A stretch of DNA of 64,000 bases from Arcobacter sp. (GTDB lineage Bacteria > Campylobacterota > Campylobacteria > Campylobacterales > Arcobacteraceae). The stretch covers positions 124,001 to 188,000 of the forward strand of contig PKUJ01000002.1 of the NCBI GenBank assembly GCA_002869565.1. Direction: 5' to 3'. Made by a program: the position numbers and the translations under genes. The notes below the pieces were generated by a model. The model was not told the DNA's origin, ran no database searches, and worked only from the letters and a program-made list of their open reading frames with translations. Positions 1,662 to 23,157 of this stretch are shown piece by piece (within the stretch, counting starts at the first letter, position 1; each line of letters starts with the position of its first letter).

Positions 1662-2400
1662 GCACGAAAATGAACAAAATATAGGTGACTTAAAGCGTGG
1701 TGATAGAATTCTTTATCTTGATGATGTAACAGTTAGTTTTGATGGTTTTAAAGCTTTAAACTCTTTATCTCTTACAATAGAGTATGAAGAGTTAAGATGT
1801 ATCATTGGAGCAAATGGTGCAGGAAAATCTACTATGATGGATGTAATTACAGGAAAAACACAGCCAGACCAAGGTCATGTAGTATTTGGACAAGCAGTTG
1901 ATTTACTTCAAATGGATGAACCTTCAATTGCTGAAATTGGGATAGGAAGAAAATTTCAAAAACCAACTGTATTTGAAGGTCATTCAGTATTTGAAAATCT
2001 TGAACTTGCTATGAAAGATGATAAAAGATTTTTTAAAACTTTATTTGCAAAATTAAATGGTGAACAAAAAGATAAAATTGAAGAGACTATGAATTTGATT
2101 GGATTAAAAGATTTTTATAAAAGAGAAGCTGGAATATTATCCCATGGTCAAAAACAGTGGCTAGAGATTGGAATGCTTTTAATGCAAGATCCAAAACTTT
2201 TACTAGTAGATGAACCAGTTGCGGGTATGACACCAGGGGAAGTTGAAAAAACTGGACAAATTTTAACTGACCTTTCAAAAAATCACTCAGTTGTGGTAGT
2301 TGAACATGATATGGAATTTATTAGAAGTATTGCTAAAAAAGTGACTGTTTTACACGAAGGTTCAGTTTTAGCAGAAGGTTCAATGAAAGATGTTCAATAG
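1648..2400 (+). CDS. urtD: Urea ABC transporter ATPase UrtD, C-terminus cut by an in-frame TAG
   Basis: This is an ATP-binding subunit of the urea importer (LivG-like), 250 aa. Walker A (GANGAGKST, about residues 54-62), an ABC signature variant LSHGQ (164-168), Walker B LLLVDEP (184-190) and the H-loop VVVEHD are all visible. The reading frame stops at TAG 2398-2400, but the same frame continues for 11 codons, encoding NEKVRKVYLGE and then TAA. This is the usual C-terminal ending of the family; the LivG paralogue at 18046-18828 has NPKVIEAYLG at the same place. A nonsense change has therefore removed about 12 residues. The motor motifs are intact, so the protein may still work. Confidence 0.9.
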   Translation: MLVLKHENEQNIGDLKRGDRILYLDDVTVSFDGFKALNSLSLTIEYEELRCIIGANGAGKSTMMDVITGKTQPDQGHVVFGQAVDLLQMDEPSIAEIGIGRKFQKPTVFEGHSVFENLELAMKDDKRFFKTLFAKLNGEQKDKIEETMNLIGLKDFYKREAGILSHGQKQWLEIGMLLMQDPKLLLVDEPVAGMTPGEVEKTGQILTDLSKNHSVVVVEHDMEFIRSIAKKVTVLHEGSVLAEGSMKDVQ

Positions 2401-2436
2401 AATGAAAAAGTTAGAAAAGTATATTTAGGAGAATAA
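2401..2436 (+). other. In-frame continuation of urtD after the TAG stop
   Basis: Eleven sense codons in the urtD frame encode NEKVRKVYLGE and end at TAA 2434-2436, one base before the urtE ATG. The normal urtD-urtE spacing is thus preserved if the TAG is read as sense. The stretch also contains the urtE ribosome-binding site (AGGAG, 2427-2431), which explains why the DNA would stay conserved after the stop arose. Confidence 0.8.
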
Positions 2437-2437
2437 T

Positions 2438-3133
2438 ATGATTGAGATAAAAAATATAAATCAGTTTTATGGTCAAAGTCATACTCTTTGGGATTTAAGT
2501 TTAGAAATAAAAACTGCACGTTGTACTTGTCTTATGGGAAGAAATGGAGTTGGTAAAACAACTTTAACAAAATCTATTATGGGACTTGAGCCAATAAAAG
2601 ATGGCGAAATAATCTTTGAGGGCAAAGATATAAGTCGTTTAGGAAGTGAAAAAAGAGCAGGTCTTGGAATTGGTTATGTTCCACAAGGTAGAGAAATATT
2701 TTCACAATTAAGTGTAAAAGAGAATTTAGAGATTGGATTACTTGGAAATAGAAATGGTCTAAAGCAAGTACCTGATAAAATATATGAACTGTTTCCAGTT
2801 TTAAAAGAAATGTTAAAAAGAAAAGGTGGAGACCTTTCAGGTGGTCAGCAACAGCAGTTGGCAATTGCAAGAGCACTATGTTTAGAGCCAAAGCTTTTGA
2901 TACTTGATGAGCCTTCTGAGGGAATTCAACCAAACATCGTACAACAAATTGGAAGTGTAATTGACTATCTTACTAAAGAGGAGAAAATCACTGTAATACT
3001 AGTTGAACAAAAGTTGCCATTTGCAAGAAAACATGGAGATGACTTCTTCTTAATAGAAAGAGGAAAAGTTGTTGCAAATGGAGAGATAGAAGAACTTAAT
3101 GATGAAATAGTAGAGCAGTATTTATCAGTATAA
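2438..3133 (+). CDS. urtE: Urea ABC transporter ATPase UrtE
   Basis: This is the second ATPase of the urea importer (LivF-like), 231 aa, the usual length. Walker A GRNGVGKTT (about residues 34-42), signature LSGGQQQQ, Walker B LLILDEP and the following SEGIQPNIV are present; the last is typical of UrtE. AGGAG lies 6 nt before the ATG. It is the final gene of the operon, followed by a strong hairpin. Confidence 0.92.
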   Translation: MIEIKNINQFYGQSHTLWDLSLEIKTARCTCLMGRNGVGKTTLTKSIMGLEPIKDGEIIFEGKDISRLGSEKRAGLGIGYVPQGREIFSQLSVKENLEIGLLGNRNGLKQVPDKIYELFPVLKEMLKRKGGDLSGGQQQQLAIARALCLEPKLLILDEPSEGIQPNIVQQIGSVIDYLTKEEKITVILVEQKLPFARKHGDDFFLIERGKVVANGEIEELNDEIVEQYLSV

Positions 3134-3240: not shown

Positions 3241-4047
3241 TCAAACAATAAGCATTTTTATACCCACACAAGTTAAAAAGATTGCAAAGGCAAGCTTTAA
3301 TTGTTTAACATTTAATTTATAAGCTAACTTCACTCCATAGGGAGCAAAAAACATAGTCATAGGTACAAGTACAGCAAATGCTAACCAGTTTACATATCCA
3401 GTTGAGGCAAAAGGTAGACTTTCTGCATTCCAGCCTACAATTATATAACCAATAGTTGCAGGAATACTAATAATAAGTCCAAATAATGAAGCTGTACTAA
3501 CTGCTCTGTGAATTGGAAAAGAATATAAAGATAATAAAGGAACCATAAGTGTTCCACCTCCAATTCCTAATAAAGAAGCAAATATTCCAAGAAGTGTAGC
3601 AAAAATAAATTGTCCAAACTTTCCAGGAAGAGATTTTGCTATAACTAAAGTTTTAAAGCTACTTATTATCATATTCATTGATACCAATAGAAGTAAAACA
3701 CCAAACATAAATTTTAAGCTATTTCCATCAATAAATTTTGATGAAAAAGCTCCAATTAATACACCTAAAATAACAAAAGGTATCCATTTTTTTGATAGTT
3801 CCCAATCAATCCCACCTTTTTTATGGTGAGATCTTGCAGAGATTATTGAGGTTACAACTATCGTAGATAAAGAGGTTCCAATGGCTAAAGGCATAGCAAT
3901 AGAAATGTCTATTTTCATGTATATAAAAATATGATAAAGCATTGGAACTATTACAATTCCTCCACCTACACCAAGAAGTCCTGCAAGTAATCCTGCAACA
4001 ACTCCACTTATTAATAAAATTGGCACTAAAATCAATAATTCATTCAT
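3241..4047 (-). CDS. TauE/SafE family anion permease (sulfite-exporter type)
   Basis: This inner-membrane protein of 268 aa belongs to the TauE/SafE family, which exports sulfite, sulfoacetate or other organic anions. Two family repeats are visible, GLLGVGGGIVIVPML near residue 25 and SLLGIGGGTLMVPLL near residue 160, each starting a bundle of hydrophobic helices. It ends the same-strand set TRAP-Ntn hydrolase-TauE with a 16-nt gap to the hydrolase, so it is probably co-transcribed. A role in exporting an acidic product of that pathway is inference; the substrate is unknown. Confidence 0.85.
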   Translation of the reverse strand: MNELLILVPILLISGVVAGLLAGLLGVGGGIVIVPMLYHIFIYMKIDISIAMPLAIGTSLSTIVVTSIISARSHHKKGGIDWELSKKWIPFVILGVLIGAFSSKFIDGNSLKFMFGVLLLLVSMNMIISSFKTLVIAKSLPGKFGQFIFATLLGIFASLLGIGGGTLMVPLLSLYSFPIHRAVSTASLFGLIISIPATIGYIIVGWNAESLPFASTGYVNWLAFAVLVPMTMFFAPYGVKLAYKLNVKQLKLAFAIFLTCVGIKMLIV

Positions 4048-4063
4048 ATAAATTTATCCTTGT

Positions 4064-5662
4064 TTAAAAGCTTGAAGCTTTTCCATCACTTCTTGGGTCA
4101 AATGCCCCCTCTATTTGTTTTGATGGCTTATAAACCAATGCTCCTGCATGACCAACTGCTGAATCCAAAGCAGATAAAATTTCAACATCATGACCTTTAT
4201 GTCTTAATTGTTTAATTATCTCTTCTTTAAATCTTGATTCTAGTTTTAAACTTTGAGATGAATTTCCCCATGTTCTTCCTAAAAGCCATCTTGGATTGTT
4301 AATTGAAGCTTGTAAATCTTCATTATAATAAGCATATCTTGAAAAAATAGCTGCTTGTGTTTGTGGCTGTCCATCTCCACCCATTGTTCCATAATCCATA
4401 ACCCTTCCATCATCAAAGAGTGCAATTGCAGGATTTAATGTATGGAAAGGTTTTTTATGTGCTTCTAAAGCTTGAATATGTGTTGAATCAAGAGCAAAAC
4501 TGCAACCTCTATTTTGCCATACAATTCCTGTCTTTGGGAGTGTTAGACCACTTCCAAATTCATGATAAATACTTTGAATAGCACTCACTACTCTGCCTTC
4601 TGAATCAATTGTCCCAAACCAAGTTGTATCGCCTGGTGCTGCATTTTCTCCCCACGGTAGAGCTTTTTCTAAATCAAGTTCTTGGCTTAACTTATCTAAA
4701 TATTCTGGTTCTAACCATGCTTGCAATTCTTCAGGGCTTGCTGAAGTATTCATTAGATCTCTATGTTTAAAAGCTATTTTTGTAGCTTCAACTAGTAAAT
4801 GAATATGATTTGTAGAATCTTTTTCTGGGAGTTTTTCAAGCCATCTATCAAAAAGTCCTAAAATCATAAGAGAAGCTATCCCTTGAGTTGGAGCTGAAGC
4901 ATTAAAAAGTTTTCCTTTACTCATTTTCATTTCTAAAGGTGAATTCCATGATGCATTATGCTCATTTAAATCTTTTATTGAAAGTAATCCCTCTCTTTTT
5001 TCAAAGTCATTAGCAATATCTTTTGCTAAATCACCTCTATAAAAATCATCAAAACCATTTTCCCCAAGGGTTTTAATAGTTTTTCCTAATTTTTCTTGAA
5101 TTAGTTTATCACCTTTTTTAGGAGTATTTCCATTCGGATAATAAATTTCTGAGAAATATTTATCGACTGACAGTTCTTCTTTTTTCTCTTCTAATGTTTG
5201 AGATAAAGAATCTGTTACAACAATACCATTTTTATCTGATAGGACTGCTTCTTCAACAAGTTTTGAAGAAGGAATATTACCCTTCCAATTATTTTTACTT
5301 TTTTTATAAGCTAAATCCCAAGCAGAAACAGCACCAGCGACTGTATTTGCTGCAAGTTTTCCTCTAAAAGGAATTGTTTTTAAACCTTCATATTGATTCA
5401 TCTTTACATCAAATCCAGAGTATCCAGAAGCTTCAATAAAACTAACTCCCTCTTTAGGGTCATAAATTAACCAAAAAGCATCACCACCAATTCCTGTCAT
5501 ATGAGGGTAGTGAATAGCCAAGGATGAAGCTACTGCAATTGTTGCTTCTATTGCATTTCCTCCTTGTTTTAAAATCTCTACTCCAGCATCTGACGCTGCA
5601 TAATGTGGTGAAACAACCATACCATTTTGGGAAATTTCTGTTTTAGGTAAATTATTATTCAT
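4064..5662 (-). CDS. Gamma-glutamyltransferase-family Ntn hydrolase, HpxW-like (probable oxamate amidohydrolase)
   Basis: This 532-aa protein is a full-length GGT-fold proenzyme. The self-cleavage site GDTTW places the nucleophile Thr near residue 346 at the start of the small subunit. There is no signal peptide, so it is cytoplasmic, unlike periplasmic GGTs. The small-subunit motifs IQSIYHEFGSG, IVWQNRG, PFHTLNPA, MGGDGQPQTQAA and RWLLGRTWG match my recollection of HpxW, the oxamate amidohydrolase of the Klebsiella purine (hpx) pathway, better than classical GGT. It lies just downstream of the TRAP transporter genes, and the purine-catabolism context supports HpxW. The other reading is a generic gamma-glutamyl hydrolase. 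Assignment to the GGT superfamily is secure; the oxamate substrate is an inference. Confidence 0.8.
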   Translation of the reverse strand: MNNNLPKTEISQNGMVVSPHYAASDAGVEILKQGGNAIEATIAVASSLAIHYPHMTGIGGDAFWLIYDPKEGVSFIEASGYSGFDVKMNQYEGLKTIPFRGKLAANTVAGAVSAWDLAYKKSKNNWKGNIPSSKLVEEAVLSDKNGIVVTDSLSQTLEEKKEELSVDKYFSEIYYPNGNTPKKGDKLIQEKLGKTIKTLGENGFDDFYRGDLAKDIANDFEKREGLLSIKDLNEHNASWNSPLEMKMSKGKLFNASAPTQGIASLMILGLFDRWLEKLPEKDSTNHIHLLVEATKIAFKHRDLMNTSASPEELQAWLEPEYLDKLSQELDLEKALPWGENAAPGDTTWFGTIDSEGRVVSAIQSIYHEFGSGLTLPKTGIVWQNRGCSFALDSTHIQALEAHKKPFHTLNPAIALFDDGRVMDYGTMGGDGQPQTQAAIFSRYAYYNEDLQASINNPRWLLGRTWGNSSQSLKLESRFKEEIIKQLRHKGHDVEILSALDSAVGHAGALVYKPSKQIEGAFDPRSDGKASSF

Positions 5663-5663
5663 T

Positions 5664-6989
5664 TTACATCCATCCTATTGATTTTGGTAGCCAAAGGGCT
5701 ATTTCTGGGAATATCATTACTAATGCAATTACAACAATTTGAATTGCAATAAAAGGTAATACTCCTTTATAAATTTCCATAGTTTTTATCTCTTTTGGAG
5801 CTACCCCTTTTAGAAAAAAGAGTGACCATCCAAAGGGTGGAGTTAAAAATGATGTTTGAAGGTTTAAGGCAACTAAAATACCTAACCAAATCATATTTAT
5901 ATCAAGTGTATGGAATATTGGCAATACCAATGGCAATACAATATATGATATTTCAATCCATTCTAAGAAAAAACCAAGAATAAATAAAACAAACATCATA
6001 AATAAAATTGAACCCCACATACCCCCTGGTATTGCTGCAAAAAGGTCTTCAACTAAATAATCTCCATCTAAACCTCTAAAACTAAGTCCGAAAACTTGTG
6101 AGGCGATAAGAACAAACATAATCATACCAGTGACTTTCATAGTTTCATATAAAGTTTCTTTTAAAATTGTTAAATTTAGTCTTTTACTTAAAAACACAAT
6201 AAGTAAAGCACCAATAGCACCCATTGAAGCAGCTTCAGTAGGAGCTGCAAGCCCGCCAATAATAGAACCTAATACGGCAAATATTAATAAAAATGGTGGA
6301 GCTACTGATTTGAAAAACTCTATCCATAAATCTTTTTGAGAATAAGAGTCTCTTTCCTCTTTATCAATAGGAGGCACATGATGTGGCGCAAATTTACTCA
6401 AAAGAATTATATATATGATATAACAAGTTGCTAAAAGTAATCCAGGCATTAATGCCGCAGCAAATAAAGGTCCAATAGCTTCTCCACTAATATCAGCTAA
6501 TAAAATCAAAACTAAACTAGGAGGCAAAATTTGTCCCAATGTTCCTGAAGCACAGATTGTTCCACAAGATATACTATGACTATAATTTCTTTTTAATAAA
6601 GTTGGTAAAGCAATCATTGTAAGAGTAACAACAGTAGCTCCAACAATACCTGTAGACGCACCCATTAAAATACCTACAACTATAATTGCAATAGCCATCC
6701 CTCCAGGTTTTTTACCTGATAATAATCCTAAAACATCCAACATCTTTTCTGCTAAGCGGGACTTTTCTAATAAAATACCCATAAAAACAAAAAGAGGGAC
6801 TGCTAAAAGTGTGTAATTTGTTAGTACCCCAAAAATTCTAGATGGAAGAAGATTGAATAGATTCATATCTACACCAATAACTCCAAATAATAGGCCAGCT
6901 CCAGCAATTGCAAAGGCAACAGGAACTCCAGCCAAAATAAGAATAAATAAGGATATAACCATCATTATTGCTAATATTTGTGGATCCAT
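5664..6989 (-). CDS. dctM: TRAP transporter large permease DctM
   Basis: This is the large membrane subunit (441 aa, about 12 hydrophobic segments) of a tripartite ATP-independent periplasmic transporter, driving substrate uptake with an ion gradient. Family motifs visible include GVPVAFAIAGAGLLFG near the N-terminus and ASGTLGQILPPSLVLIL near residue 150. It follows dctQ by 3 nt and precedes the Ntn hydrolase by 1 nt, so the four genes form one operon and the imported substrate probably feeds the hydrolase. Confidence 0.92.
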   Translation of the reverse strand: MDPQILAIMMVISLFILILAGVPVAFAIAGAGLLFGVIGVDMNLFNLLPSRIFGVLTNYTLLAVPLFVFMGILLEKSRLAEKMLDVLGLLSGKKPGGMAIAIIVVGILMGASTGIVGATVVTLTMIALPTLLKRNYSHSISCGTICASGTLGQILPPSLVLILLADISGEAIGPLFAAALMPGLLLATCYIIYIILLSKFAPHHVPPIDKEERDSYSQKDLWIEFFKSVAPPFLLIFAVLGSIIGGLAAPTEAASMGAIGALLIVFLSKRLNLTILKETLYETMKVTGMIMFVLIASQVFGLSFRGLDGDYLVEDLFAAIPGGMWGSILFMMFVLFILGFFLEWIEISYIVLPLVLPIFHTLDINMIWLGILVALNLQTSFLTPPFGWSLFFLKGVAPKEIKTMEIYKGVLPFIAIQIVVIALVMIFPEIALWLPKSIGWM

Positions 6990-6992
6990 AAA

Positions 6993-7502
6993 CTAGTTCT
7001 CCTCTTTTAATTGTGAAATAGCTTTAAATAGAACTGCTAATCCTTGTATAAAAATCAATGTAAATCCTAGAGGTATAAGTGATTTTACTAAATATCTATA
7101 TGGTAAACCTCCAGGATCGGGAGATACTTCCCCATTAACATAAGATTGCATTACATATTGGCTAGATAAATAGATGATAAATAGTGAAAAAGGGATAATG
7201 ATTAATAAAGGAATTAAAATATCCATCCATACTTTTATTTTTTTACTATAATGATGATAAAATAAATCAACTCTAACATGTTCACCTTGTTGAAATGTGA
7301 AGGCAGAACCAAACATTGTAATCGCAGCTAAAATATGCCATTGAAGCTCTTGTTCAGCAATTGAACTTAAGTGAAAGAAATATCTAAAAAGAACATCTCC
7401 TGAAACAAGAAGAACCAAAATAAAAATCAACCATGAACTTATTTGACCGATGCGTTCTATAAACGCATCAAGTCTATTTGAAATATTTAAAATTTTTATC
7501 AT
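6993..7502 (-). CDS. dctQ: TRAP transporter small permease DctQ
   Basis: This is the small membrane subunit (169 aa) of the TRAP transporter, with four hydrophobic helices, the usual DctQ plan. The stretch FTFQQGEHVRVDLFYHH matches the conserved region near the second helix. Its start overlaps the dctP stop by 4 nt (ATGA), indicating coupled translation. Small permeases diverge rapidly, so the assignment rests on topology and operon position as well as motif. Confidence 0.88.
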   Translation of the reverse strand: MIKILNISNRLDAFIERIGQISSWLIFILVLLVSGDVLFRYFFHLSSIAEQELQWHILAAITMFGSAFTFQQGEHVRVDLFYHHYSKKIKVWMDILIPLLIIIPFSLFIIYLSSQYVMQSYVNGEVSPDPGGLPYRYLVKSLIPLGFTLIFIQGLAVLFKAISQLKEEN

Positions 7503-8596
7503 GATGATAACTTAGTCATCACTACTTCTTCACTTTTATTTTGCCAATCGTCGTGCATTGCTTTAAAAGCAAAGTAGCTTTCGTGTACTTTTTTTACTAA
7601 TGGGTCTTTTTCTGTTAATTTATCGTATGTAGCAAATGTTACTTCTCTTAATTTTTTAATTACTGAGTCAGGCAGAGTTTTAGCCATCACTCCTTCGTTT
7701 TTAACTAAATCTTCTAAAGCTTCTGAATTATTTGCTTCTGACCAAGAAAGTCCCATGAGATTACATTCTGCTGCAACAGTTTTTACAATCGCTTGTAAAT
7801 CTTTTGGTAAAGATTCCCATGCATCTTTATTAATTAAACACTCACTTGTATTACTAGGTTCTCCCCAACCTGTTGTATAATAATATTTAGCAGCTTTATG
7901 TAATCCCATTCTTCTATCTTGAAAAGGTCCCACAAATTCTGCTGCATCAATAACACCTCTTTCTAATGCTGGGAAAATTTCACCACCAGGAAGAAGTTTA
8001 ACTCCAACACCTAATTGTTCTAAAACTTTTCCCGCAAGACCTGGAACTCTCATTCTAAGACCTTTTAAATCTTCAACAGAGTTAATCTCTTTTTTGAACC
8101 ATCCTGTCATTTGAACCCCAGTATTTCCTGCTGCAAGTCCAATTACATTAAATGGCTTATAGACTTCATCCCATAATTCTTGTCCCCCACCAAATTGTAA
8201 CCAAGCATTTGTTCCTTGGAAGTTCATCCCAAATGGAACCGCAGTAAAGTATTGAGCTGCAAATGTTTTTCCTGCCCAAAAGAATGAATTACCCCAGTTC
8301 ATTTGAATAGTACCATTTGATACTGCATCAAAACCTTCCATAGCTGGTATAAGTTCTCCTGCTGGATAGTGTTTAATTCTTAATCTACCATCTGATAATT
8401 CTTCAACTCTTTTACAAAAATAGCTAGCATTTCCTGGCCCTGTAGAATAAAATGGTGCTCCTGCCCCGTAACAATTTGTCATTTTCCATCTAAATGTTTT
8501 TTTTGAATCTGCACTTGCAATACTTGGTATAGCAATAGCTGCACCTAAACCTGCTAAACTTGTTTTTTTAATAAATTCTCTTCTATTTTTAGTCAT
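7499..8596 (-). CDS. dctP: TRAP transporter substrate-binding protein DctP (TakP-like), Tat-exported
   Basis: This is the periplasmic solute receptor (365 aa) of the TRAP system. The N-terminus carries a twin-arginine signal (NRREFIKK, then a hydrophobic stretch ending near ASA at residue 29), as in the TakP branch. A typical binding-site region includes LRMRVPGLAGKVLEQLG and GGEIFPALERGVIDAAEFVG. TakP-type receptors bind 2-oxo or hydroxy acids; the ligand here is unknown, but small ureido or oxamic acids would suit the hydrolase in the operon. It is the first gene of the operon, facing a 608-bp control region. Confidence 0.9.
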   Translation of the reverse strand: MTKNRREFIKKTSLAGLGAAIAIPSIASADSKKTFRWKMTNCYGAGAPFYSTGPGNASYFCKRVEELSDGRLRIKHYPAGELIPAMEGFDAVSNGTIQMNWGNSFFWAGKTFAAQYFTAVPFGMNFQGTNAWLQFGGGQELWDEVYKPFNVIGLAAGNTGVQMTGWFKKEINSVEDLKGLRMRVPGLAGKVLEQLGVGVKLLPGGEIFPALERGVIDAAEFVGPFQDRRMGLHKAAKYYYTTGWGEPSNTSECLINKDAWESLPKDLQAIVKTVAAECNLMGLSWSEANNSEALEDLVKNEGVMAKTLPDSVIKKLREVTFATYDKLTEKDPLVKKVHESYFAFKAMHDDWQNKSEEVVMTKLSS

Positions 8597-9204
8597 TTTT
8601 ATTTCCCTTGTTTTTTTATAATTGAGATTCAGTATGAATCCACCTAATGACTTTACTCTTGAAAATAAGAGCTAGTCTATTTAGTAGAAAGTAAAGTACA
8701 AAAAAATTATTTTTCACTTGTTTGTAATTTGAATATATTAATTTTAATTTATTTTCTTCTAAATAGAATTTAAAACATTAAAGAGTTACTTATACTTTCT
8801 AGATAATTGTCTTTTGTATAATTTTTTTTAAATAGACAATTTTTGTAAGCTTACCATTCTCAAAATCAAGAATTTTAGCAAGGTTCAGTACTTCAAATGT
8901 TTTCTAAATGTATTCTATAACTTGGGAAGATTTTTGTAAAGATATTTTTTGTCATTAACTGTACATCTATTGTGTATTTATTTTATACAGAGTATGTTTA
9001 AATTTTATACATAGTACAAAAATTATTTTTAATTTTATTTATGATACTATACTGATTATTGAAGCTTTGCATAAAAGCAATTGCCTTGAATTATTTATTC
9101 TATAAAAATATAAATAACAACAAAACAATAAATTACATCAATATAGTGGAATTTTAAAATTAAAATTTATATAAATTTATAAAAAAGATGAGTTAAAATA
9201 TAAT
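8597..9204. other. Divergent control region between the TRAP operon and allA copy 1
   Basis: These 608 bp are AT-rich and hold no plausible gene. They contain an 8-bp inverted repeat (ACTTTACT 8650-8657, AGTAAAGT 8690-8697) enclosing a smaller CTCTT/AAGAG stem in the dctP leader, an AATTGTCT/AGACAATT pair (8805-8812, 8834-8841), and two TGTAT-N7-ATACA type palindromes at 8973-9011. Promoters for both flanking operons must lie here; no single -10 box stands out enough to assign. Confidence 0.7.
8973..9011. promoter_or_regulatory. Two palindromic sites of the form TGTAT-N7-ATACA, 22 bp apart
   Basis: Site one (8973-8989) is TGTAT, seven bases, ATACA, with perfect half-sites. Site two (8995-9011) is TGTTT, seven bases, ATACA, one mismatch, and sits within a 21-bp near-palindrome (8993-9013). 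The centres are 22 bp apart, two helical turns. The same form recurs at 14754-14770 and, less well, at 14881-14897 and 21134-21150. The binding protein is unknown. Confidence 0.45.
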
Positions 9205-9720
9205 ATGAGAACAGAAATAAAACCAAAACCTCTGACAAGAGAATCTTTTAAAAAATTTGGTGAAGTAATAGAAAAAGAAGGTAGAGACTCTATGATTATA
9301 AATAGAGAATCTGCCCAAAAGTTTTATGAAGTTTGTAATATGGATGCAAATGAAAAAGGAGGAAGTTCAACTTTACATATATATATAGGAAAAAGTAGAG
9401 AATTTCCATTGCATATTAATATGTTAGAGAAACATCCTTTATTTTCTCAAACTTTTTTGCCAAGAAGTAAAGAACCATTTTATTGTGTCGTTGCATTAGG
9501 GGGTAGAGAACCAGACTTATCAACTCTTGAAATATTTGAAACAAACGGAGATCAAGGTATTCATTATAATAGAGGGACTTGGCATTTCCCTTTAATTTGT
9601 ATAAAAGATAAAGAGGAATTTTTTGTTTTAGACAGATCAGGTAAAAATGAAGAGGAAAGAAGAATAGTTGAACAAATAGAATATAATATGGTTGAAAAAC
9701 AAATATATTTAGTTCGATAA
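9205..9720 (+). CDS. allA: Ureidoglycolate lyase, copy 1
   Basis: This 171-aa cupin-type enzyme splits (S)-ureidoglycolate into glyoxylate and urea, the last step of allantoin breakdown. It resembles the copy at 23158-23676 over its whole length (about two thirds identical by eye), sharing KPKPLT, SSTLHIYIGK, FPLHINMLEKHP, FLPRSKEPF and GDQGIHYNRGTWHFPL, the last being the conserved AllA region. It is followed 58 nt later by ureD, so one transcript could carry a urea-releasing enzyme and a urease chaperone. No strong ribosome-binding site is visible before its ATG. Confidence 0.88.
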   Translation: MRTEIKPKPLTRESFKKFGEVIEKEGRDSMIINRESAQKFYEVCNMDANEKGGSSTLHIYIGKSREFPLHINMLEKHPLFSQTFLPRSKEPFYCVVALGGREPDLSTLEIFETNGDQGIHYNRGTWHFPLICIKDKEEFFVLDRSGKNEEERRIVEQIEYNMVEKQIYLVR

Positions 9721-9778: not shown

Positions 9779-10528
9779 ATGAGTATATCAATAGATTTTA
9801 AAAATGAAATATTTTCACTAAACAAACTACAACTTCCTACTCGATACTATTATTTTAAAGAGACAGAAAATTATGTGAAACTTCTTAGTATCGGTGAAGG
9901 GATATTTCCCAAAGACAGACTAAAAACAAATATAAAACTAGTAGATTCTACTTGTATTGTTACAACTGAATCTGCTACAAAAGTTTATCCTTCTAAAAAA
10001 GAGTATGGAATAAATTATATAAATATAGATTTAAAAAACTCTAATTTTGAGTTTCTAAATGACGAACTTATTTTATATAAAAACTCAAAGCTTTTACAAA
10101 TCTTACGTTTAAAAGTAGATGAAAACTCAACTTTCTTTTATAGTGATATTTTAACACAAGGAAGAAGTTACGAACATTTTGATTTCGACTCTATGTTAGT
10201 TAGAAATAAATTTTACTGCAAAGAAGATTTAGAGTATTTTGAAAACTTTGAAGTTGAGGGAAAGGATTTAAAAAGTTACATAAAAAGACATGAGAATAAA
10301 AACTATATTTATTTAAAAATTTATATAAAAGCAAAAGAGAATAAAACTTTTTTAAAAACCTTACATAAAGAGGGTTTTGACTCTTTTTGTTTTACAAAAT
10401 CAAAAGAGATGATTATAGGTTCTATTTCTGCTTCTGATATGATAGAGATAAAAAGAAAACAAAAAGAGTTATGGAATATTTATAGAAAAGCTTTGGAGAA
10501 AAAAGAGTTTAATTTAGGAAAACAATAA
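9779..10528 (+). CDS. ureD: Urease accessory protein UreD (UreH), detached from the main urease cluster
   Basis: This 249-aa protein matches UreD, the scaffold that binds apo-urease with UreF and UreG for nickel insertion. Visible family marks are TTESATKVYPS near residue 62 (UreD proteins have TTQxATKVYR), the following region ending in LQILRLKVDENSTFFYSD, and QGRSYEHFDFDSM (family: GR...GExFxF). The main urease genes at 27568-31685 encode UreAB, C, E, F and G but no UreD, so this gene completes the set from 17 kb away. It is diverged and slightly short (family usually about 260-290 aa). An alternative of an unrelated hypothetical protein is unlikely given the motif order. Confidence 0.8.
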   Translation: MSISIDFKNEIFSLNKLQLPTRYYYFKETENYVKLLSIGEGIFPKDRLKTNIKLVDSTCIVTTESATKVYPSKKEYGINYINIDLKNSNFEFLNDELILYKNSKLLQILRLKVDENSTFFYSDILTQGRSYEHFDFDSMLVRNKFYCKEDLEYFENFEVEGKDLKSYIKRHENKNYIYLKIYIKAKENKTFLKTLHKEGFDSFCFTKSKEMIIGSISASDMIEIKRKQKELWNIYRKALEKKEFNLGKQ

Positions 10529-10615: not shown

Positions 10616-11773
10616 ATGCAGGTTTCAATAAGTAAAATATAGCTTATTCTTTTTTTTATAGTTTCTGTAATATTCTCTACAATCTATACCCCTCAAGCAA
10701 TACTTCCAGTATTAAAAGAAACTTTTCATATTAGTATTTTAGAGACTAACTTGTTACTCTCTGGCATGTTATTTGTTATGATGGTTTCAACACCTTTTTA
10801 TGCTCCTATATCAAATCGTTTTGCACACAAAAATATTATGTTATTTTCACTATTTTTTCTTTTTCTTTCTGTTTTTTTATCTTCTGTTACAACAAACTTT
10901 TATATTTTACTTTTTAGTAGATTTTTGCAAGGGATGTTTTTACCTGGGATTACGGCAATTATGCTTTCTTATGTTCAAGAAATTTATCCCAAATCTTATA
11001 GAGGTTTGGGTTTAGGTATTTATATGGCAGCAACTGGTTTTGGAGCTGTGATAGGGCGTTTATTAGCAGGTTGGATAACTTTCCTTTATTCATGGAAAAT
11101 GGCATTTTTATCATTTGCAGTTCTTTTATTTATAGCTTTTATTGCAATGCTTTTTACCTTGCCAAAACCTGAAAGAAATATTATCAAAAAAAATATAGCA
11201 ACTAAAAATGATATATTGCTTTATCTCTCAAATCCCAAAATTCTTTCTATCTTATTTATTCCAACGGTAGTATTTTTTTCCTTTATGGCTATATCAACTT
11301 TTGCAACATATCACTTAGCTCAAGAGCCATTTAATTTAAATACAAGGGAATTGGGTAATGTTTTTTTAGTTTTATTATTAGGTGTAATTGTAAGCCCCCT
11401 TGTAGGAAGATATTCTGATATTATTGGGCGAGTTAAAATAATGTTTTTTGGTATAAGTATTCTAATCTTTGGGATATTTTTGACACTTACTCAATCTTTT
11501 ACCTTGGTTATTATAGGAATGGGATTTGTCACGATTGCTATGTTTTCTGTGCAATCAGTTGCACCAGCATATTTAGGGGAAATAGTTTCAAATAATAAAT
11601 CAACAATATCCATTTTATATCAAAGCTTTTTTTACTTAGGTGGTTGTTTAGGAACTTTTATTCCATCAATTGTTTGGGAATATTATGAATATAGTGGTGT
11701 TGCAATATTTTGTATTATTTTACTTTTATTGGGAAGTAGCCCTTTTGCTTATTTGAAGTTTAAAGAAAAATAG
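10616..11773 (+). pseudogene. MFS transporter (YnfM-like) interrupted by TAG at codon 9
   Basis: An ATG at 10616 opens a frame reading MQVSISKI, then TAG at 10640-10642. The same frame continues without further stops to 11773 through LILFFIVSVIFSTIYTPQA, a normal first helix and loop of YnfM-type MFS transporters, then about eleven more hydrophobic segments. A shorter product of 340 aa could start at TTG 10751, but it would lack helix 1 and no ribosome-binding site precedes it. The likely state is a full-length gene of about 385 codons with one nonsense codon. The substrate is unknown. It lies between ureD and a convergent ABC operon. Confidence 0.7.
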
Positions 11774-11812: not shown

Positions 11813-12541
11813 CTATAATACAGAAGATAAAAAAGCTTGCAACTCTTTTGTTTGTGGATTTGCAAAAACTTCATCACTAGCTCCTGTTTCCCAAACTTTT
11901 CCATTATGCATAAAAATTACTCTATCTCCAATGTCCCTTGCAAAATTCATTTCGTGAGTTACTAAAATTAGGGTCATTCCTTCTTTTGCTAATTCTTCTA
12001 ATACTTTTAAAACTTCACCTACTAATTCAGGGTCAAGGGCAGATGTTATTTCATCACAAAGTAAAACTTTTGGTGACATTGCAAGTGATCTTGCGATTGC
12101 AACTCTTTGTTTTTGTCCACCTGATAAACTGCCAGGGTATTGATCAAAGAAATTTTCCATTCCTACTTTTTTTAGACATTTTAAAGCCAGTTCTCTTGCT
12201 TCTTTATCATTTTTTCCTAGAACTAATTTAGGAGATAACATAACATTTTCGCCAGTTGTTTTATGTGGATATAGATTAAATCCTTGGAAAATCATTCCAC
12301 AAACTTTACTTATCTTTTGAAGTTGTAAATCATTTGTAGTAACCTCTAAGTTTCCAACAATAATATTACCTTCTTGATGATTTTCCAATCCATTTATACA
12401 TCTAAGAAGCGTACTTTTCCCTGAACCTGAACGTCCAATGATAGAGATAACTTCTCCAGCTTTAACCTTCAAGTCTACACCTTTTAATACATGTTTCTCT
12501 CCATAGTATTTGTGTAAACCTTCAATACTAACTAGCGACAT
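11813..12541 (-). CDS. Polar amino acid-type ABC transporter ATPase (GlnQ-like)
   Basis: This ATPase subunit (242 aa) belongs to a polar amino acid uptake (PAAT) transporter. Walker A GRSGSGKST near residue 35, signature LSGGQKQR near residue 136, Walker B LLCDEITSALDPE and the H-loop LVTHEM are all present. It overlaps the upstream permease gene by 14 nt and is the last gene of a four-gene operon (receptor, permease, permease, ATPase). The operon promoter carries two palindromic operators shared with the allantoin genes, so the substrate may be a ureido compound rather than an amino acid (inference). Confidence 0.92.
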   Translation of the reverse strand: MSLVSIEGLHKYYGEKHVLKGVDLKVKAGEVISIIGRSGSGKSTLLRCINGLENHQEGNIIVGNLEVTTNDLQLQKISKVCGMIFQGFNLYPHKTTGENVMLSPKLVLGKNDKEARELALKCLKKVGMENFFDQYPGSLSGGQKQRVAIARSLAMSPKVLLCDEITSALDPELVGEVLKVLEELAKEGMTLILVTHEMNFARDIGDRVIFMHNGKVWETGASDEVFANPQTKELQAFLSSVL

Positions 12542-13178
12542 TTAATTTCCTTTCTAAATATTTACTATACCTTGTCAGAGGATAACAAATTAAAAAATAT
12601 AACAGTGCAACTAGTGCAAAAACTTTAAAGGGTTCAAATGTTACATTGTTTAACATTGTCCCAGCTTTTGTAAGTTCCACAAAACCAATAATAGAAGCCA
12701 GTGCAGTTCCTTTTACTACTTGAACTGAAAAGCCAATAGTAGGAGCAGTTGCTACTCTAATAGATTGAGGGATTATCACATGAATCATTGTTTGATAATA
12801 TGTTAGACCCATAGTTTTTGATGCTTCCCATTGTCCTTTTGGAACAGAGTCTAAACAACCTCTCCAAATTTCACATAAAAATGCGCTTGTAAAAAGGGTT
12901 AAAGCTAAACTTGCTGCACTCCAAGCCCCAATATCAATTCCAAGTAAAGACAAACCAAAAAATGCAAGGAAAAGTTGCATTAACAAAGGTGTTCCTTGAA
13001 ATACTTCTACATATATATTTATTAAAACTGTAAGAAATTTATTATTCATCATTCTTAATAAAATCAAAATTCCTGCAACAATACCACCACCAACAAAGGC
13101 AATTAAAGACAATAAAACTGTCCATCTTGCAGCTAATAGAAGATTTTGAAATATCTCTAAGGTTGTAAATTGTTCCAT
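12528..13178 (-). CDS. Polar amino acid-type ABC transporter permease (second)
   Basis: This HisM/GlnP-type inner-membrane permease (216 aa) has about five hydrophobic segments, an EVFQGTPLLMQLFLAFFG stretch typical of the N-terminal PAAT region, and the cytoplasmic ATPase-coupling loop near GQWEASKTMGLTYYQTM. It is separated from the first permease by no gap (12528-13178 against 13179-13859). It pairs with that permease as a heterodimer. Confidence 0.9.
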   Translation of the reverse strand: MEQFTTLEIFQNLLLAARWTVLLSLIAFVGGGIVAGILILLRMMNNKFLTVLINIYVEVFQGTPLLMQLFLAFFGLSLLGIDIGAWSAASLALTLFTSAFLCEIWRGCLDSVPKGQWEASKTMGLTYYQTMIHVIIPQSIRVATAPTIGFSVQVVKGTALASIIGFVELTKAGTMLNNVTFEPFKVFALVALLYFLICYPLTRYSKYLERKLNVAS

Positions 13179-13859
13179 CTATAGACTCTCTTTCATTTCA
13201 TTCATTTTAAATACTTTTTTACTTGTATATGTCAAAACATATCTAAGAAATATAGCAAGTACTAAATAAACAAATGTAATAATAAAATATGACTCAAAAC
13301 TCAAAAAAGTTCTTGACTGAATAAAGTTTGCAGTAAAAGTCAACTCTTCAACTGAAATTTGTGACAATACAGAAGAACCTAACATAACAATAATACACTG
13401 ACTTATAAGTGCTGGCGAAATTCTATTAAAAGCCTGAGGCAAGATAATATGTATAAATATCTGAGACCATCTTAAACCTAAAGTTTTTCCAGCTTCCCAT
13501 TGTCCACTACAAGTAGACTCAACACCTGCTCTAATTATTTCAGTAGAGTAAGCACCTAGATTAACTACCATTGCTATCATACCAGCTTCTAAAGCTGTCA
13601 ATTTTATGCCAATTGCAGGCAGACCAAAAAATATAAAAAACAGTTGAACAATAAAAGGAGTATTTCTAATAACTTCAACAAAAGCTCCGATAAGATTTTG
13701 TAAAAATTTATTTTTTCCTACTCTTAAAGCAGCTCCCATGATCCCTGCAGCTACTCCCAAAATAGTAGTAGCTGCTGTAATCTCAATTGTTAGTAAGATA
13801 CCGTTTAATATCTCTTTATAAAAAGGAAGAACACTAACAAAATCTAATTCGTAATCCAT
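13179..13859 (-). CDS. Polar amino acid-type ABC transporter permease (first)
   Basis: This PAAT-family permease (226 aa) has EVIRNTPFIVQLFFIFFG near residue 65 and the coupling loop GQWEAGKTLGLRWSQIF near residue 128, both diagnostic of the HisMQ/GlnP group. It follows the receptor gene by 11 nt. With its neighbour it forms the membrane channel. Paralogy between the two permeases is evident from the shared motifs in the same order. Confidence 0.9.
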   Translation of the reverse strand: MDYELDFVSVLPFYKEILNGILLTIEITAATTILGVAAGIMGAALRVGKNKFLQNLIGAFVEVIRNTPFIVQLFFIFFGLPAIGIKLTALEAGMIAMVVNLGAYSTEIIRAGVESTCSGQWEAGKTLGLRWSQIFIHIILPQAFNRISPALISQCIIVMLGSSVLSQISVEELTFTANFIQSRTFLSFESYFIITFVYLVLAIFLRYVLTYTSKKVFKMNEMKESL

Positions 13860-13870
13860 CTCTTTTGCTT

Positions 13871-14650
13871 CTATAAATCTTTTGGAAGATCAATTTTCAA
13901 CCATTTTTTAGATGTTTCGTTTAATTTTCCATTTGCTTTTAACTCACCAATTAAGTTATTTAAGAAAGTTTCAACTTCTGGTTGTTTTTTCTTAATACCA
14001 ATATAACAAGGAGAGTTTTTAATCGCAAATTTTGCTTCAGGAGCTGTATTTGGGAACTTACTAGCAATATCACTAATAATTACATTTCCAGTTGCGATAA
14101 GTTTAGTTTGACCAGATACAAATGCAGAAATAGTTGTACTATTATCTTCAAATCTTTTAATAGTAACATCAGATCCAACTAATTTACTTAATTCTAAATC
14201 TTCTACAGAACCTCTTGTTACACCAATAGTTTTACCTGATAAATCTTTTACAGATGAAACAGCTACATCTTTACTTCCAAATACTCCTAGGAAAAATGGT
14301 GCATAAGCATTAGTAAAATCAATAACTTTTGCTCTTTGTGCATTTTTACCTAAACTTGAAATAATTAAATCAGCTTTTCCTGTTTGTAAATAAGGAATTC
14401 TATTTGCACTAGTTACTGGAACTAATTTTAGTTTAACTCCTAATTTGTCTGCAATATATTTACCCATATCAACATCATAACCTTGAACACTCATATCTTT
14501 TGAAGCAGAACCAAATGGCGGAAAATCTTGAGGAACTGCAATTTTAACAACTCCTGAAGATTTAATATCATCCAATTGATTTGCACTCAATAAACTTGCA
14601 CTAACAAGTGCTCCTGTTGCTAAAACTTTTAGTAATGTTTTTTTAAACAT
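13871..14650 (-). CDS. Periplasmic substrate-binding protein of a PAAT-type ABC transporter
   Basis: This receptor (259 aa) has a Sec signal peptide ending near SANQ (residue 25) and a type II periplasmic binding fold. Marks include VKIAVPQDFPPFG, the GYDVDMGKYIADKLGV stretch, NRIPYLQTGKADLIIS and GVTRGSVEDLEL. It is first in its operon; the start has an AAGGA site a few bases upstream. Two tandem ATTGTNNACAAT palindromes end 26 bp before the ATG. The ligand is not predictable from sequence; the shared operators suggest an allantoin-pathway compound. Confidence 0.9.
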   Translation of the reverse strand: MFKKTLLKVLATGALVSASLLSANQLDDIKSSGVVKIAVPQDFPPFGSASKDMSVQGYDVDMGKYIADKLGVKLKLVPVTSANRIPYLQTGKADLIISSLGKNAQRAKVIDFTNAYAPFFLGVFGSKDVAVSSVKDLSGKTIGVTRGSVEDLELSKLVGSDVTIKRFEDNSTTISAFVSGQTKLIATGNVIISDIASKFPNTAPEAKFAIKNSPCYIGIKKKQPEVETFLNNLIGELKANGKLNETSKKWLKIDLPKDL

Positions 14651-14675: not shown

Positions 14676-14700
14676 ATTGTCGACAATTATTGTATACAAT
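14676..14700. promoter_or_regulatory. Two tandem ATTGTNNACAAT operators upstream of the PAAT operon
   Basis: ATTGTCGACAAT (14676-14687) and ATTGTATACAAT (14689-14700) are each perfect 12-bp palindromes, one base apart, giving a 13-bp period. They lie 26 bp before the start codon of the receptor gene at 14650 and overlap its probable promoter or leader. The half-site TTGT...ACAA is the usual form for FCD-type GntR regulators; such a regulator is encoded at 20399. Confidence 0.75.
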
Positions 14701-14753
14701 TTTTTAACTTTGAGAATTTTAGATTAAAAATATTAAATAGTCAACATAAAATA

Positions 14754-14770
14754 TGTATATATTATATACA
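14754..14770. promoter_or_regulatory. 17-bp palindrome TGTAT-N7-ATACA
   Basis: The site TGTATATATTATATACA is a perfect palindrome around a central T. The same TGTAT-N7-ATACA layout occurs at 8973-8989. It is separate in sequence and spacing from the ATTGTNNACAAT sites and may bind a second regulator. Confidence 0.45.
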
Positions 14771-14887
14771 CACAATAATCTAAATAATCATATTATCAAT
14801 TATGTACATCCTAAAAATAGAAAATTTTACTTTTTAAAGAAAGTCTTATAAATTTAAGAAAAATTGTATTTTTTAAAGATTGTATAA

Positions 14888-14925
14888 ATTGTAGACAATT
14901 ATTGTGAACAATTATTGTCTACAAT
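14888..14925. promoter_or_regulatory. Three tandem ATTGTNNACAAT operators upstream of the LivKHMGF-type operon
   Basis: ATTGTAGACAAT (14888-14899), ATTGTGAACAAT (14901-14912) and ATTGTCTACAAT (14914-14925) follow one another with single-base spacers, an exact 13-bp period. TGATAAGAT, a plausible -10 region, follows at 14927-14935, so bound repressor would cover the -35 and spacer. The same arrangement (operators, then CTGATAA) precedes puuE at 21154-21185. Confidence 0.8.
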
Positions 14926-14987: not shown

Positions 14988-16157
14988 ATGAAAAGATTTC
15001 TGAAAATAGGTTTAGCATTTGGGATGCTAAGTAGTGTACTTTTAGCTCAAGAGACTATAAAGATTGGTTTTGTAGGAACACTTTCAGGTGCAAATGCTGC
15101 CTGGGGAACTTCAAATGTAAGATCAATGGAAACATCAGCAGACATATATAATAAAAATGGAGGTGTTGAAATTGGTGGTAAAAAATATAAAGTTGAGATT
15201 GTACCATTTGATGATGCGTACGATCCAAAAATAGCAGTTGCTGGTATGGAAAAAATGGCTCAAGAACAAATTAAATATGTAATTGGACCAAATGATGATG
15301 CTCAAGCGATTGCAGTAAGACCAATTGCACAGAGAAATAAAATTGTATATTTCCCATATGCATTTAATAAAACTTTATACAAAAAACCTGCTAATTATGC
15401 TGTATTTGGAATGATTGCATCATATCAATGGGAACCAGCAGTTTATAAATGGCTACAAGATAATAAAGGTGTAAAAACTGTTGCATTTTTAGCTGCAAAT
15501 GCTTCTGATCCTCTTAACCAAAGAGACAATGGACTTAAAATTGCTAAAGATTTAGGCTTAGTTATTGTTGAAGCAAAAGCTACTTATAAAGCTGATACTA
15601 GAGATTTCTTTTCTGTAATTACGCCAATTATTAAAAAGAAACCAGATTTATTAGTTCTTTCAGGAGTATCTCCTGCAACTGCACCACTTATTATTAAAAC
15701 TGCTAGACAATTAGGATTTAAAGGTTTTATGGCTGCTGGTACTGCACTTGATGCTGGTATTTTAAAAGAGGGAGCGGGTGATGCTGCAAATGGGTTTATT
15801 TGTCAAGGTGGAGCTGATGCTTCAATTCAATCAAAAGTTATGAAAAACTGGGTTGAATACTATACTAAGAAATTTGGTGAGTACAATGATGAATCAAATA
15901 CAAAAGTATTTGCACTTGAATATATCTTAGAAGTTATGAAATCAAATCCAAAAGCGATTAATGATGCAGATGAATTCCTTAAAACTGTTGATTCAGGATG
16001 GGAAGCTCCAAATAAATTCTTTAAAGATAAAGATGCAAAACTTAAATTTGTAGGTAAAACAACATTTGGTCAAGATAGACAATTAGGTGTTCCTTTAACT
16101 CCAAAAATCTATAAAAATGGAAAGTTTGAAACATTATTCGTAGGTTCAGCAGACTAG
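14988..16157 (+). CDS. Substrate-binding protein of a branched-chain amino acid/amide-type ABC importer
   Basis: This periplasmic receptor (389 aa) has a signal peptide ending near LLAQ (residue 21) and a type I (LivK/UrtA/AmiC) fold. Marks include IKIGFVGTLSGANAAWG, VEIVPFDDAYDPK and YVIGPNDDAQAIAVRPIAQ. A clear AGGGAGA site precedes the ATG. It leads the operon receptor-permease-permease-ATPase-ATPase-racemase, under three tandem operators. Linkage to the racemase and allantoin genes suggests it captures allantoin, hydantoin or a related ureide; this is inference, and a branched amino acid cannot be excluded by sequence alone. Confidence 0.9.
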   Translation: MKRFLKIGLAFGMLSSVLLAQETIKIGFVGTLSGANAAWGTSNVRSMETSADIYNKNGGVEIGGKKYKVEIVPFDDAYDPKIAVAGMEKMAQEQIKYVIGPNDDAQAIAVRPIAQRNKIVYFPYAFNKTLYKKPANYAVFGMIASYQWEPAVYKWLQDNKGVKTVAFLAANASDPLNQRDNGLKIAKDLGLVIVEAKATYKADTRDFFSVITPIIKKKPDLLVLSGVSPATAPLIIKTARQLGFKGFMAAGTALDAGILKEGAGDAANGFICQGGADASIQSKVMKNWVEYYTKKFGEYNDESNTKVFALEYILEVMKSNPKAINDADEFLKTVDSGWEAPNKFFKDKDAKLKFVGKTTFGQDRQLGVPLTPKIYKNGKFETLFVGSAD

Positions 16158-16163
16158 TTATAT

Positions 16164-16183
16164 GAGGTATCTTTTGATACCTC
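16164..16183 (+). terminator. Intergenic hairpin after the receptor gene
   Basis: A perfect 8-bp stem (GAGGTATC and GATACCTC) with a TTTT tetraloop lies in the 50-nt gap between receptor and permease genes. Such hairpins commonly attenuate or stabilise transcripts so that the receptor is made in excess over membrane subunits; that role is inferred here. Confidence 0.55.
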
Positions 16184-16207
16184 TATTTTAAAATAGGAAA
16201 TGATTTA

Positions 16208-17080
16208 ATGGAACAGATATTACTTAATGGTTTAATTACAGGGGCGCAATATGCTTTAATCGCACTTGGTTTGACACTAATCTTCTCTTTAATGAGTATT
16301 TTAAATTTTGCTCATGGTCAGATGTACGTCTTAGGAGCATTTATTACTTACTATGTGTATGGTAAGTTAGGTATGCCTTTTATTGTAGCTATTGTTGCTT
16401 CAGGGTTAACATTAGCACTAATAGGTGCAATATTTGAAAAATATCTTTTTAACACCGTCTTGAAAAGATCTGTCAGGGAAGAGAGTTCAATGCTTCTTGC
16501 AGCTGGTACTGCATTTTTCTTAGACTCTTTGATTCTTATTGTATTTGGAGAGAAACAAAGAAGTGTTCCAGCACTTGTTGATGGAGTGTTTTTTGGTGAA
16601 GATTTTGGTTTAGATATTATCATTCCATATAACAGAGTTGTTATTGGTTTAATTGCAATTGTTATGATTGTATCATTTATTTTATTTATGCAATACTCAA
16701 AACCTGGGCGAGCTATGAGAGCTTTAGCTCAAGATAAAACAGCAGCTCAACTAATGGGTGTTGATTTGGATAGATATAGTTTAATTGGATTTGCTTTAGG
16801 AGCGATGCTTGCAGGTGTAGCAGGAAGTTTACTTGTTACTATTACGGGGGTTAATTCTGGTATTGGTGGAGGCATCTCAATACAAGCATTTACAATGATT
16901 ATGATTGGTGGAGCTGGAGTTATCTCTGGAGCTATCATAGGTGGATTTATTTTAGGACTTGTTGAAGCTTTTGGTTTATATTATTTGCCAGGAGATGTAA
17001 CTTATCTTACTATTTTTGTATGTCTGATGATATTTCTTACTTTACGTCCACAGGGACTTATGGGAAAACCTTGGGGGTGA
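16208..17080 (+). CDS. LivH-type ABC importer permease
   Basis: This inner-membrane permease (290 aa) starts with the family opening NGLITGAQYALIALGLTLIF and SILNFAHGQMYVLGAF, both typical of LivH. It has about eight hydrophobic segments and ends in LRPQGLMGKPWG. It differs from UrtB in lacking the VVVFGGVGNLWGT element, so this is a second importer and not a urea-transporter duplicate. A TAGGA ribosome site precedes the start. Confidence 0.91.
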   Translation: MEQILLNGLITGAQYALIALGLTLIFSLMSILNFAHGQMYVLGAFITYYVYGKLGMPFIVAIVASGLTLALIGAIFEKYLFNTVLKRSVREESSMLLAAGTAFFLDSLILIVFGEKQRSVPALVDGVFFGEDFGLDIIIPYNRVVIGLIAIVMIVSFILFMQYSKPGRAMRALAQDKTAAQLMGVDLDRYSLIGFALGAMLAGVAGSLLVTITGVNSGIGGGISIQAFTMIMIGGAGVISGAIIGGFILGLVEAFGLYYLPGDVTYLTIFVCLMIFLTLRPQGLMGKPWG

Positions 17081-17083
17081 TTT

Positions 17084-18049
17084 ATGGAAAATAAAAAATT
17101 TGTACTACAAGTATTAATAGCACTAGTTTTTTTACTAGTAGTTATTCCAACTGTTTTAATCAGTACTGGGAGAAATGACTACCTTTATGGCTTTACTTCA
17201 GTTGCTATCTTAGCAACTATTAGTTCAGGTGTTTGGTTGACATTTTATATGGGAAGAATTAATATTGGGCAAGGTGCATATGCATTAATTGGAGCATATA
17301 CAACAGCAGTTTTAGTTACAAGTGTAGGTTTATCTTTTTGGATATCTATTTTTTTAGCGGGAATTGTTGCAGCATTTTTTAGTATCTTAATTGGTTTACC
17401 AATTTTAAGATTAAAAGGGGTGTATTTTTCTATGATTACACTAACATTAACTGAAGTTGCAAAACTTTTGGCAATAGTGTTAGTCCCAATCACAAATGGA
17501 CCTAGAGGAATTACAAATATTCCTTTACCAGATGAATTAAACATATTTGGACTTACTATTATTCCAGATTTTGCAACTATGGAAAATAGTAAAATAGGAT
17601 TTTACTATTTAGGAACAATTGCAATGATTATCACATTTGCAATAATGTATAGATTAACAAAATCAAGAATGGGTATCTTATTAAGATCTCTTCAACAAAA
17701 TGAAGAATTAGCTTCATCTTTTGGAGTAAATATCGCTTATTTAAGGGTTATATCATATGCAATTGCTTCGTTTTTTGGTGGAGTTGGAGGAGCAATTTTT
17801 ATTAACCTAACCCAATCAGTTTATCCAACAACTTTTCAAGTAGCAGATTCGATTAATTATATGTTATATACTTTCTTGGGTGGATTGGCATATGTATTTG
17901 GACCAATTTTAGGAGCTTTTGTTTTATATTTTTCTTGGGATTTATTGTTTATATTTAAACAATATCAACTATTGATTTACTCAGGTATTATGATTTTATT
18001 AATGGTGTTTTTACCAAATGGAATATTAAGTTTAAGGTTTAAAAAATGA
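17084..18049 (+). CDS. LivM-type ABC importer permease
   Basis: This second permease subunit (321 aa) has the family element GRINIGQGAYALIGAYT near residue 58 and RLKGVYFSMITLTLTE near residue 110. It is preceded by a 3-nt gap and its stop overlaps the start of the ATPase gene by 4 nt (ATGA). The product is all hydrophobic helices except the coupling loop near residues 195-215. Confidence 0.91.
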   Translation: MENKKFVLQVLIALVFLLVVIPTVLISTGRNDYLYGFTSVAILATISSGVWLTFYMGRINIGQGAYALIGAYTTAVLVTSVGLSFWISIFLAGIVAAFFSILIGLPILRLKGVYFSMITLTLTEVAKLLAIVLVPITNGPRGITNIPLPDELNIFGLTIIPDFATMENSKIGFYYLGTIAMIITFAIMYRLTKSRMGILLRSLQQNEELASSFGVNIAYLRVISYAIASFFGGVGGAIFINLTQSVYPTTFQVADSINYMLYTFLGGLAYVFGPILGAFVLYFSWDLLFIFKQYQLLIYSGIMILLMVFLPNGILSLRFKK

Positions 18050-18828: not shown

Positions 18829-18829
18829 T

Positions 18830-20247: not shown

Positions 20248-20321
20248 TAAACATTAGCTTTATATGAGATAGTTTTAACGTAAAATTTTGGTGTGCTGTT
20301 TATATTAATTGCATTCTGGTT

Positions 20322-20359
20322 ATTGTTTACAGAAACTAGAATGTAAATTATAATATAAT
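20322..20359 (+). promoter_or_regulatory. Probable gntR promoter with a degenerate operator
   Basis: ATTGTTTACAGA (20322-20333) matches ten of the twelve positions of ATTGTNNACAAT and sits inside a wider CATTCT/AGAATG inverted repeat (20312-20317, 20338-20343). Two overlapping TATAAT hexamers follow (20349-20354, 20354-20359), about 40 bp before the gntR ATG. Weak autoregulation is plausible. Confidence 0.5.
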
Positions 20360-20398
20360 AAACTAGCACAAAATGGAAAAAAGTGGGAGAAACTTTTA

Positions 20399-21082: not shown

Positions 21083-21103
21083 CTAAGTTATATAACTTAG
21101 TTA
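21080..21103. terminator. 24-bp perfect palindrome after gntR
   Basis: TAACTAAGTTAT is followed directly by its complement, and the left arm overlaps the gntR stop codon. It can form a hairpin on the gntR transcript; a T-rich stretch follows. It is probably the gntR terminator, insulating the puuE promoter. Confidence 0.65.
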
Positions 21104-21153
21104 ATCTTACATTTCCTTTATTTTAAAAACAATTGTATAAAAAATAAACACAG

Positions 21154-21178: not shown

Positions 21179-21228
21179 CTGATAAAATACTCTCATATAT
21201 AAATTTATAAAGCAGTTTTTGCTTTTTT

Positions 21229-23156: not shown

Positions 23157-23157
23157 G

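Follow-up and report, generated by a model that had tools for sequence, protein, structure and literature searches.

Where is the ureD of a urease cluster that appears to lack one, does it still serve that cluster, and how did the two come to be parted? UreD is the helper that loads nickel into urease. In the 64,000-nucleotide stretch of Arcobacter sp. DNA analysed here (the window), ureAB, ureC, ureE, ureF and ureG lie together without ureD (Table 1), while ureD is found upstream, its stop 17,039 bp away from the start of ureAB, an interval that contains about 17 genes; the first-pass annotation was right on both the missing gene and the distance of 17 kb. The full urease set (ureAB, C, E, F, G and ureD) is thus held in one genome, in an order that departs from the ureDABCEFG type in that ureD is not immediately upstream of ureAB. 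The window contains no Ns, and relatives sequenced independently show the same arrangement, which excludes an assembly artefact. We consider it very probable that this ureD codes for a working UreD and that the split was produced by insertions around ureD and not by movement of ureD, with ureD now most likely read together with allA2, the gene ahead of it.

The ureD open reading frame (plus strand, ATG start, 249 aa) scored 77.7 bits against the Pfam UreD family PF01774, for which the cut-off is 27 (E 1.8e-21), and the protein carries both motifs that had been put forward for it, TTESATKVY at residues 62-70 and the GR...F region, here GRSYEHF, at residues 128-134. It had been expected that automated annotation could easily call this gene hypothetical; with Pfam at 50 bits above the cut-off this is not supported, and only NCBIfam has no model matching it. 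A search of the whole genome (3.49 Mb, 99.7% complete) returned no second UreD. A single-sequence search against solved structures gave chance matches only; structure matches needed a family profile, built from 37 family sequences, which retrieved H. pylori UreH (3sf5, 4hi0, 8hc1) with E ~1e-6 to 5e-7. An AlphaFold2 model of the protein (mean pLDDT 71.7) matched these structures and Klebsiella UreD (8hcn) in a fold search with E 1e-12 to 1e-11, the best matches being 4hi0_B (E 1.3e-12), 8hc1_C and 8hcn_D, and among other folds nothing was significant, the next unrelated match having E 0.78. The fold is therefore common to the H. pylori, Klebsiella and Arcobacter proteins, although identity is ~15%. 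Mutagenesis of the H. pylori protein has shown the importance of D61, which contacts urease, and of S81 and E140 in the nickel tunnel (PMC10121161). These key residues are kept: in the profile alignment they correspond to D46, S65 and D123, the last a conservative acid, and all three are invariant across the 37 family members. The H. pylori gate Phe112, which we take as a feature of that protein and not as defining the UreD family, is not kept, the aligned position being D95; H. pylori also differs in that its ureH ends its operon. We infer that the product is a functional UreD active in urease maturation, where it would supply urease with nickel together with UreF, UreG and UreE, whose genes lie 17 kb downstream.

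Table 1. Features of the window around ureD and the urease cluster (positions within the window).
Feature	Coordinates	Strand	Evidence
urtC, urtD, urtE (urea ABC transporter)	498..3133	+	NCBIfam TIGR03408, TIGR03411, TIGR03410 over cut-off; synteny
First insertion: TauE-like permease, gamma-glutamyltransferase (GGT)-family enzyme, TRAP transporter (M, Q, P)	3241..8596	-	
Divergent intergenic region, probable promoter of allA2(-ureD)	8597..9204		alignment of G000, G054, G067, G068, G058, G010
allA2, second ureidoglycolate lyase	9205..9720	+	PF04115, 147 bits
ureD (UreD/UreH urease accessory protein), only copy	9779..10528	+	Pfam PF01774, profile, fold, dN/dS
MFS transporter gene, early in-frame TAG after codon 8, downstream ORF 10751-11773	10616..11773	+	
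Amino-acid-type ABC transporter (ATPase, two permeases, binding protein), second insertion	11813..14650	-	
Tandem palindromic operators ATTGTNNACAAT between two divergent transporter operons	14676..14925		
Branched-chain-type ABC transporter (binding protein, two permeases, two ATPases)	14988..19549	+	
Segment recently exchanged with G068 lineage	18900..27300		nucleotide identity, dS
Asp/Glu/hydantoin racemase family, probable allantoin racemase	19549..20247	+	PF01177, 192 bits
GntR-family regulator, probable ureide regulator	20399..21082	+	family scan
Tandem ATTGTNNACAAT operator before puuE	21154..21178		
puuE allantoinase, allantoicase, allA1 ureidoglycolate lyase	21229..23676	+	TIGR03212, TIGR02961 over cut-off; PF04115
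NCS1-family allantoin permease and malate synthase G (consumes glyoxylate)	23884..27491	+	
Probable degraded copy of urease promoter element	27496..27541	+	E = 0.53 alone, weak
ureAB, ureC, ureE, ureF, ureG	27568..31685	+	family scans
Probable nickel/cobalt ECF transporter genes (DUF4198 protein, CbiM-like, ATPase)	37320..40365	+	

The description of ureD as a displaced gene standing alone is not supported by what lies to its left. The urea transporter genes urtCDE lie to the left of ureD, with urtA and urtB just upstream of the window's left end (urtB runs into the window; UrtA was over the TIGR03407 cut-off and UrtB was matched with a truncated query). Synteny of related genomes gives urtABCDE-ureD-ureAB-C-E-F-G as the background order in Arcobacteraceae, and in six members of the genus urtE and ureD abut with zero gap. 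Judged by this order ureD still occupies the ancestral slot that follows urtCDE, and insertions flank it on both sides. The ancestral operon would have been opened on the left of ureD by a TRAP/allA2 module and on the right by a block of genes leading from allantoin to glyoxylate and urea, together with transporters.

On the left stand TauE, a GGT-family enzyme, the TRAP transporter and allA2, the first three reading divergently from allA2; TauE was identified by PF01925 and the GGT by its family match, and the TRAP subunits were named from sequence reading and synteny. The TauE/GGT/TRAP module is found between urtE and ureD also in the relatives G058, G063, G067 and G068, and in G054 it sits between ureD and allA2. 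The substrate handled by the GGT-family enzyme and its TRAP transporter (4064-8596) is perhaps oxamate- or ureide-like. On the right follow the MFS gene, two ABC transporters, the racemase, GntR, allantoinase, allantoicase, allA1, the allantoin permease and malate synthase G. For the first of the ABC transporters the name comes from reading the sequence and from synteny rather than from a family scan. The second was tried as a urea transporter and rejected: with 37.6 bits it falls short of the UrtA cut-off of 492, and the real urtABCDE lies at and before the window's left end. The MFS gene is a ~387-aa open frame in relatives, and the copy in the window may be a pseudogene or may use a later start (10751).

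Allantoin is, from context, the probable substrate of the racemase. No PuuD-type urate hydroxylase was found in the genome when a urate start of the pathway was considered, so that the pathway here probably begins at allantoin. In the relative G010 the cargo contains xanthine-dehydrogenase-type subunits, urate hydroxylase, HIU hydrolase and OHCU decarboxylase, which places a purine-to-urea route between ureD and ureAB; the gene order of G074 and G090 is similar to that of G010 by length and homology.

The same junction has been opened elsewhere in the family. Among 104 Arcobacteraceae genomes 40 carry ureD and 41 a true ureC, and clusters were compared for 38 relatives plus the window, one of the 39 (G034) having a broken ureD. 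Fourteen of the 39, window included, have the junction between ureD and ureAB opened by 3-23 kb, and the other 25 are compact. Twelve of the 14 split clusters contain an allantoicase gene, each time within the ureD-ureAB gap. Allantoicase was present in 16 genomes, all of them urease-positive: besides the 12 with the gene in the gap, two have it on the upstream side of ureD within the cluster and two at another place. The association of allantoicase with the split gives p 3e-5 in a Fisher test, a value inflated by kinship; the figure to quote is that of seven phylogenetically independent contrasts, of which 6.4 on average were concordant (median p 0.03). Opening of an operon by insertions is a known kind of event; the pattern in Arcobacteraceae is clear and apparently undescribed, a search of the open-access literature having found no description of the split-ureD arrangement in this family.

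The alternative that keeps most ground is that the split is an old, vertically inherited state, the compact clusters of the genus being secondary deletions; it has a real chance of being right, without being the reading we favour. The order of the cargo is nearly identical in seven members of the genus, the two split clusters without allantoicase look like remnants (G057, and G067 with glnQ and glcB but without the middle), and the urease/urt tree, on which at least seven changes between the compact and split states are required in the family, demands only those seven. The insertion reading for its part has against it that the ancestral state within the genus is ambiguous, since the sisters of this genome, G059 and G065, are compact. 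Against old inheritance of the split, G060, which branches off first in the genus, has the compact order, and at least part of the block has moved between lineages by recombination. A sharp-edged segment at ~18.9-27.3 kb is ~94-99% identical in nucleotides between this genome (G000) and G068, with one 250-bp bin at 92%, in flanks of ~78-88%, and dS between the two is 0.08-0.34 inside the segment and ~0.8-1.1 in ureD, ureAB and ureC. The high identity and low dS indicate a recent exchange of the allantoin segment by recombination within the genus, in which, by these dS values, ureD and the urease genes had no part.

Insertion around a stationary ureD leaves the matter of how the two separated parts are read. 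Relatives share a conserved urease promoter element, TATACAnnTGnARAAAWARTAATCT followed by TTTTTTGATAAAAT. It is placed ~60-80 bp ahead of ureD in 15 compact genomes and ahead of ureAB in 10 genomes with the split, two of the ten (G055 and G030) having copies before both genes. The 24-base pattern with 0-1 mismatches has a sole genome-wide match in G011 and in G068, and the genome of G030 has none beyond its two copies. Before the ureD of the window there is no such element. A probable degraded copy precedes ureAB at a distance that agrees with the relatives. After the split ureAB-C-E-F-G would be read from the element now before ureAB, a reading against which the degraded state of the copy counts. 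For ureD itself, the 58-bp gap that separates its start from allA2 holds no terminator-like site, and the region upstream of allA2 is conserved even where ureD is not behind allA2 (G054, G010), which indicates a promoter proper to the allA2 module. A sigma-70 promoter scan of this AT-rich region gave no more matches than in shuffled sequence and was not used. Most likely ureD has been captured by the allA2 transcription unit and is co-transcribed from the allA2 promoter; the earlier proposal of a promoter other than that of the urease cluster is thus supported by inference, from the element missing before ureD and from allA2 lying 58 bp ahead.

The neighbour of ureD had been read as a second ureidoglycolate lyase gene, and the genome contains exactly two, allA1 and allA2, which are clear paralogues in alignment. 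The pairing of a urea-releasing enzyme with the urease chaperone could be taken as an adaptive checkpoint, in which urease is activated only while urea is being released from ureides. Adjacency of allA2 and ureD, with gaps of 2-58 bp, in G000, G058, G063, G067 and G068, and the conserved region upstream of allA2, speak for such a coupling. However, ureD is still fused to urtE in G054, G057 and G062, the order in G055 is ureD-allA2, G067 retains allA2-ureD without allantoicase, and the allantoin operon has a lyase of its own in allA1 (23158-23676). The operators point the same way. Tandem ATTGTNNACAAT sites occur genome-wide only at the two places listed in Table 1 (a reversed-pattern control gave 0), and the ureide genes of relatives are preceded by the same tandem sites, so the tandem operator probably marks the allantoin regulon; the GntR protein would bind it, with ATTGTNNACAATNATTGTNNACAAT as candidate target. 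No tandem site was found before allA2-ureD (8597-9204) or before ureAB, and its absence before allA2-ureD argues against one regulator common to allantoin catabolism and ureD. The functional meaning of the pairing is weakened by allA1 and by the missing operator, and we regard the checkpoint as quite unlikely. The weakest proposal holds ureD for a stray or decaying copy and urease for inactive or able to mature without UreD. It can point to a gene apart from its partners whose product is one of the more variable in the urease set, but is highly improbable for an intact frame that keeps the key residues, in a genome that has no other ureD. With a dN/dS of ~0.07-0.20 against genus relatives, comparable to that of other chaperone genes, ureD is like them under purifying selection.

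The proposed capture of a functional, stationary ureD by a neighbouring unit may be compared with known urease loci. Arcobacter butzleri RM4018 has a ureD(AB)CEFG locus, just before which its gene numbers place another cluster, ab0802-ab0806 (PMC2147049). It shares with the window the gene families, the fused ureAB and the order, whereas its ureD is part of a compact locus; in the window genes for ureide catabolism and transport fill the 17 kb between ureD and ureAB, and the TRAP/allA2 module parts urtE from ureD. In Synechocystis PCC 6803 the urease genes are scattered and ureD is unlinked to ureABC (PMC6737895), a precedent showing that linkage is not required. Because cyanobacterial urease genes can be fully scattered, a split ureD is not new in itself; there, however, all genes are dispersed, whereas here ureD alone is split off, by pathway-related cargo and in its ancestral slot.

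The split explains a urease cluster that seems incomplete, and the relatives offer a natural series of operon remodelling, from compact, through opened with a duplicated promoter, to ureD recaptured by a neighbouring unit. Allantoin-breakdown genes tend in this family to settle within the urea operon whose substrate they make, a tendency that aids annotation and predicts allantoin as a nitrogen source. A further suggestion, which we think unlikely although somewhat less so than the checkpoint, is that the urease operon of Arcobacteraceae has been opened repeatedly at ureD for ureide and purine genes and that ureD has thereby become a separately controlled switch setting the activation of apo-urease; the variants of this switch would then be urt-coupled, allA2-coupled or under an own promoter.

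Some minor observations concern urease loci more generally. The genes for a DUF4198 protein, a CbiM-like permease and an ATPase downstream of ureG (37320-40365) encode a probable nickel ECF transporter serving urease, and in G058 their homologues come directly after ureG. In G034 (L066) an in-frame TAA interrupts ureD though the urease cluster is compact, and its urease may be inactive. Five genomes, G043, G076, G090, G093 and G094 (L076, L068, L054, L071 and L072), have a ~212-aa gene directly behind ureD, overlapping it or 1 bp apart, which is possibly a urease-related membrane protein. Outside Arcobacteraceae, the urease locus of Candidatus Thiovulum imperiosus (L083) is rearranged, with ureD 2.2 kb from ureAB-ureC and with ureE, ureF and ureG ~8 kb off in the opposite orientation.
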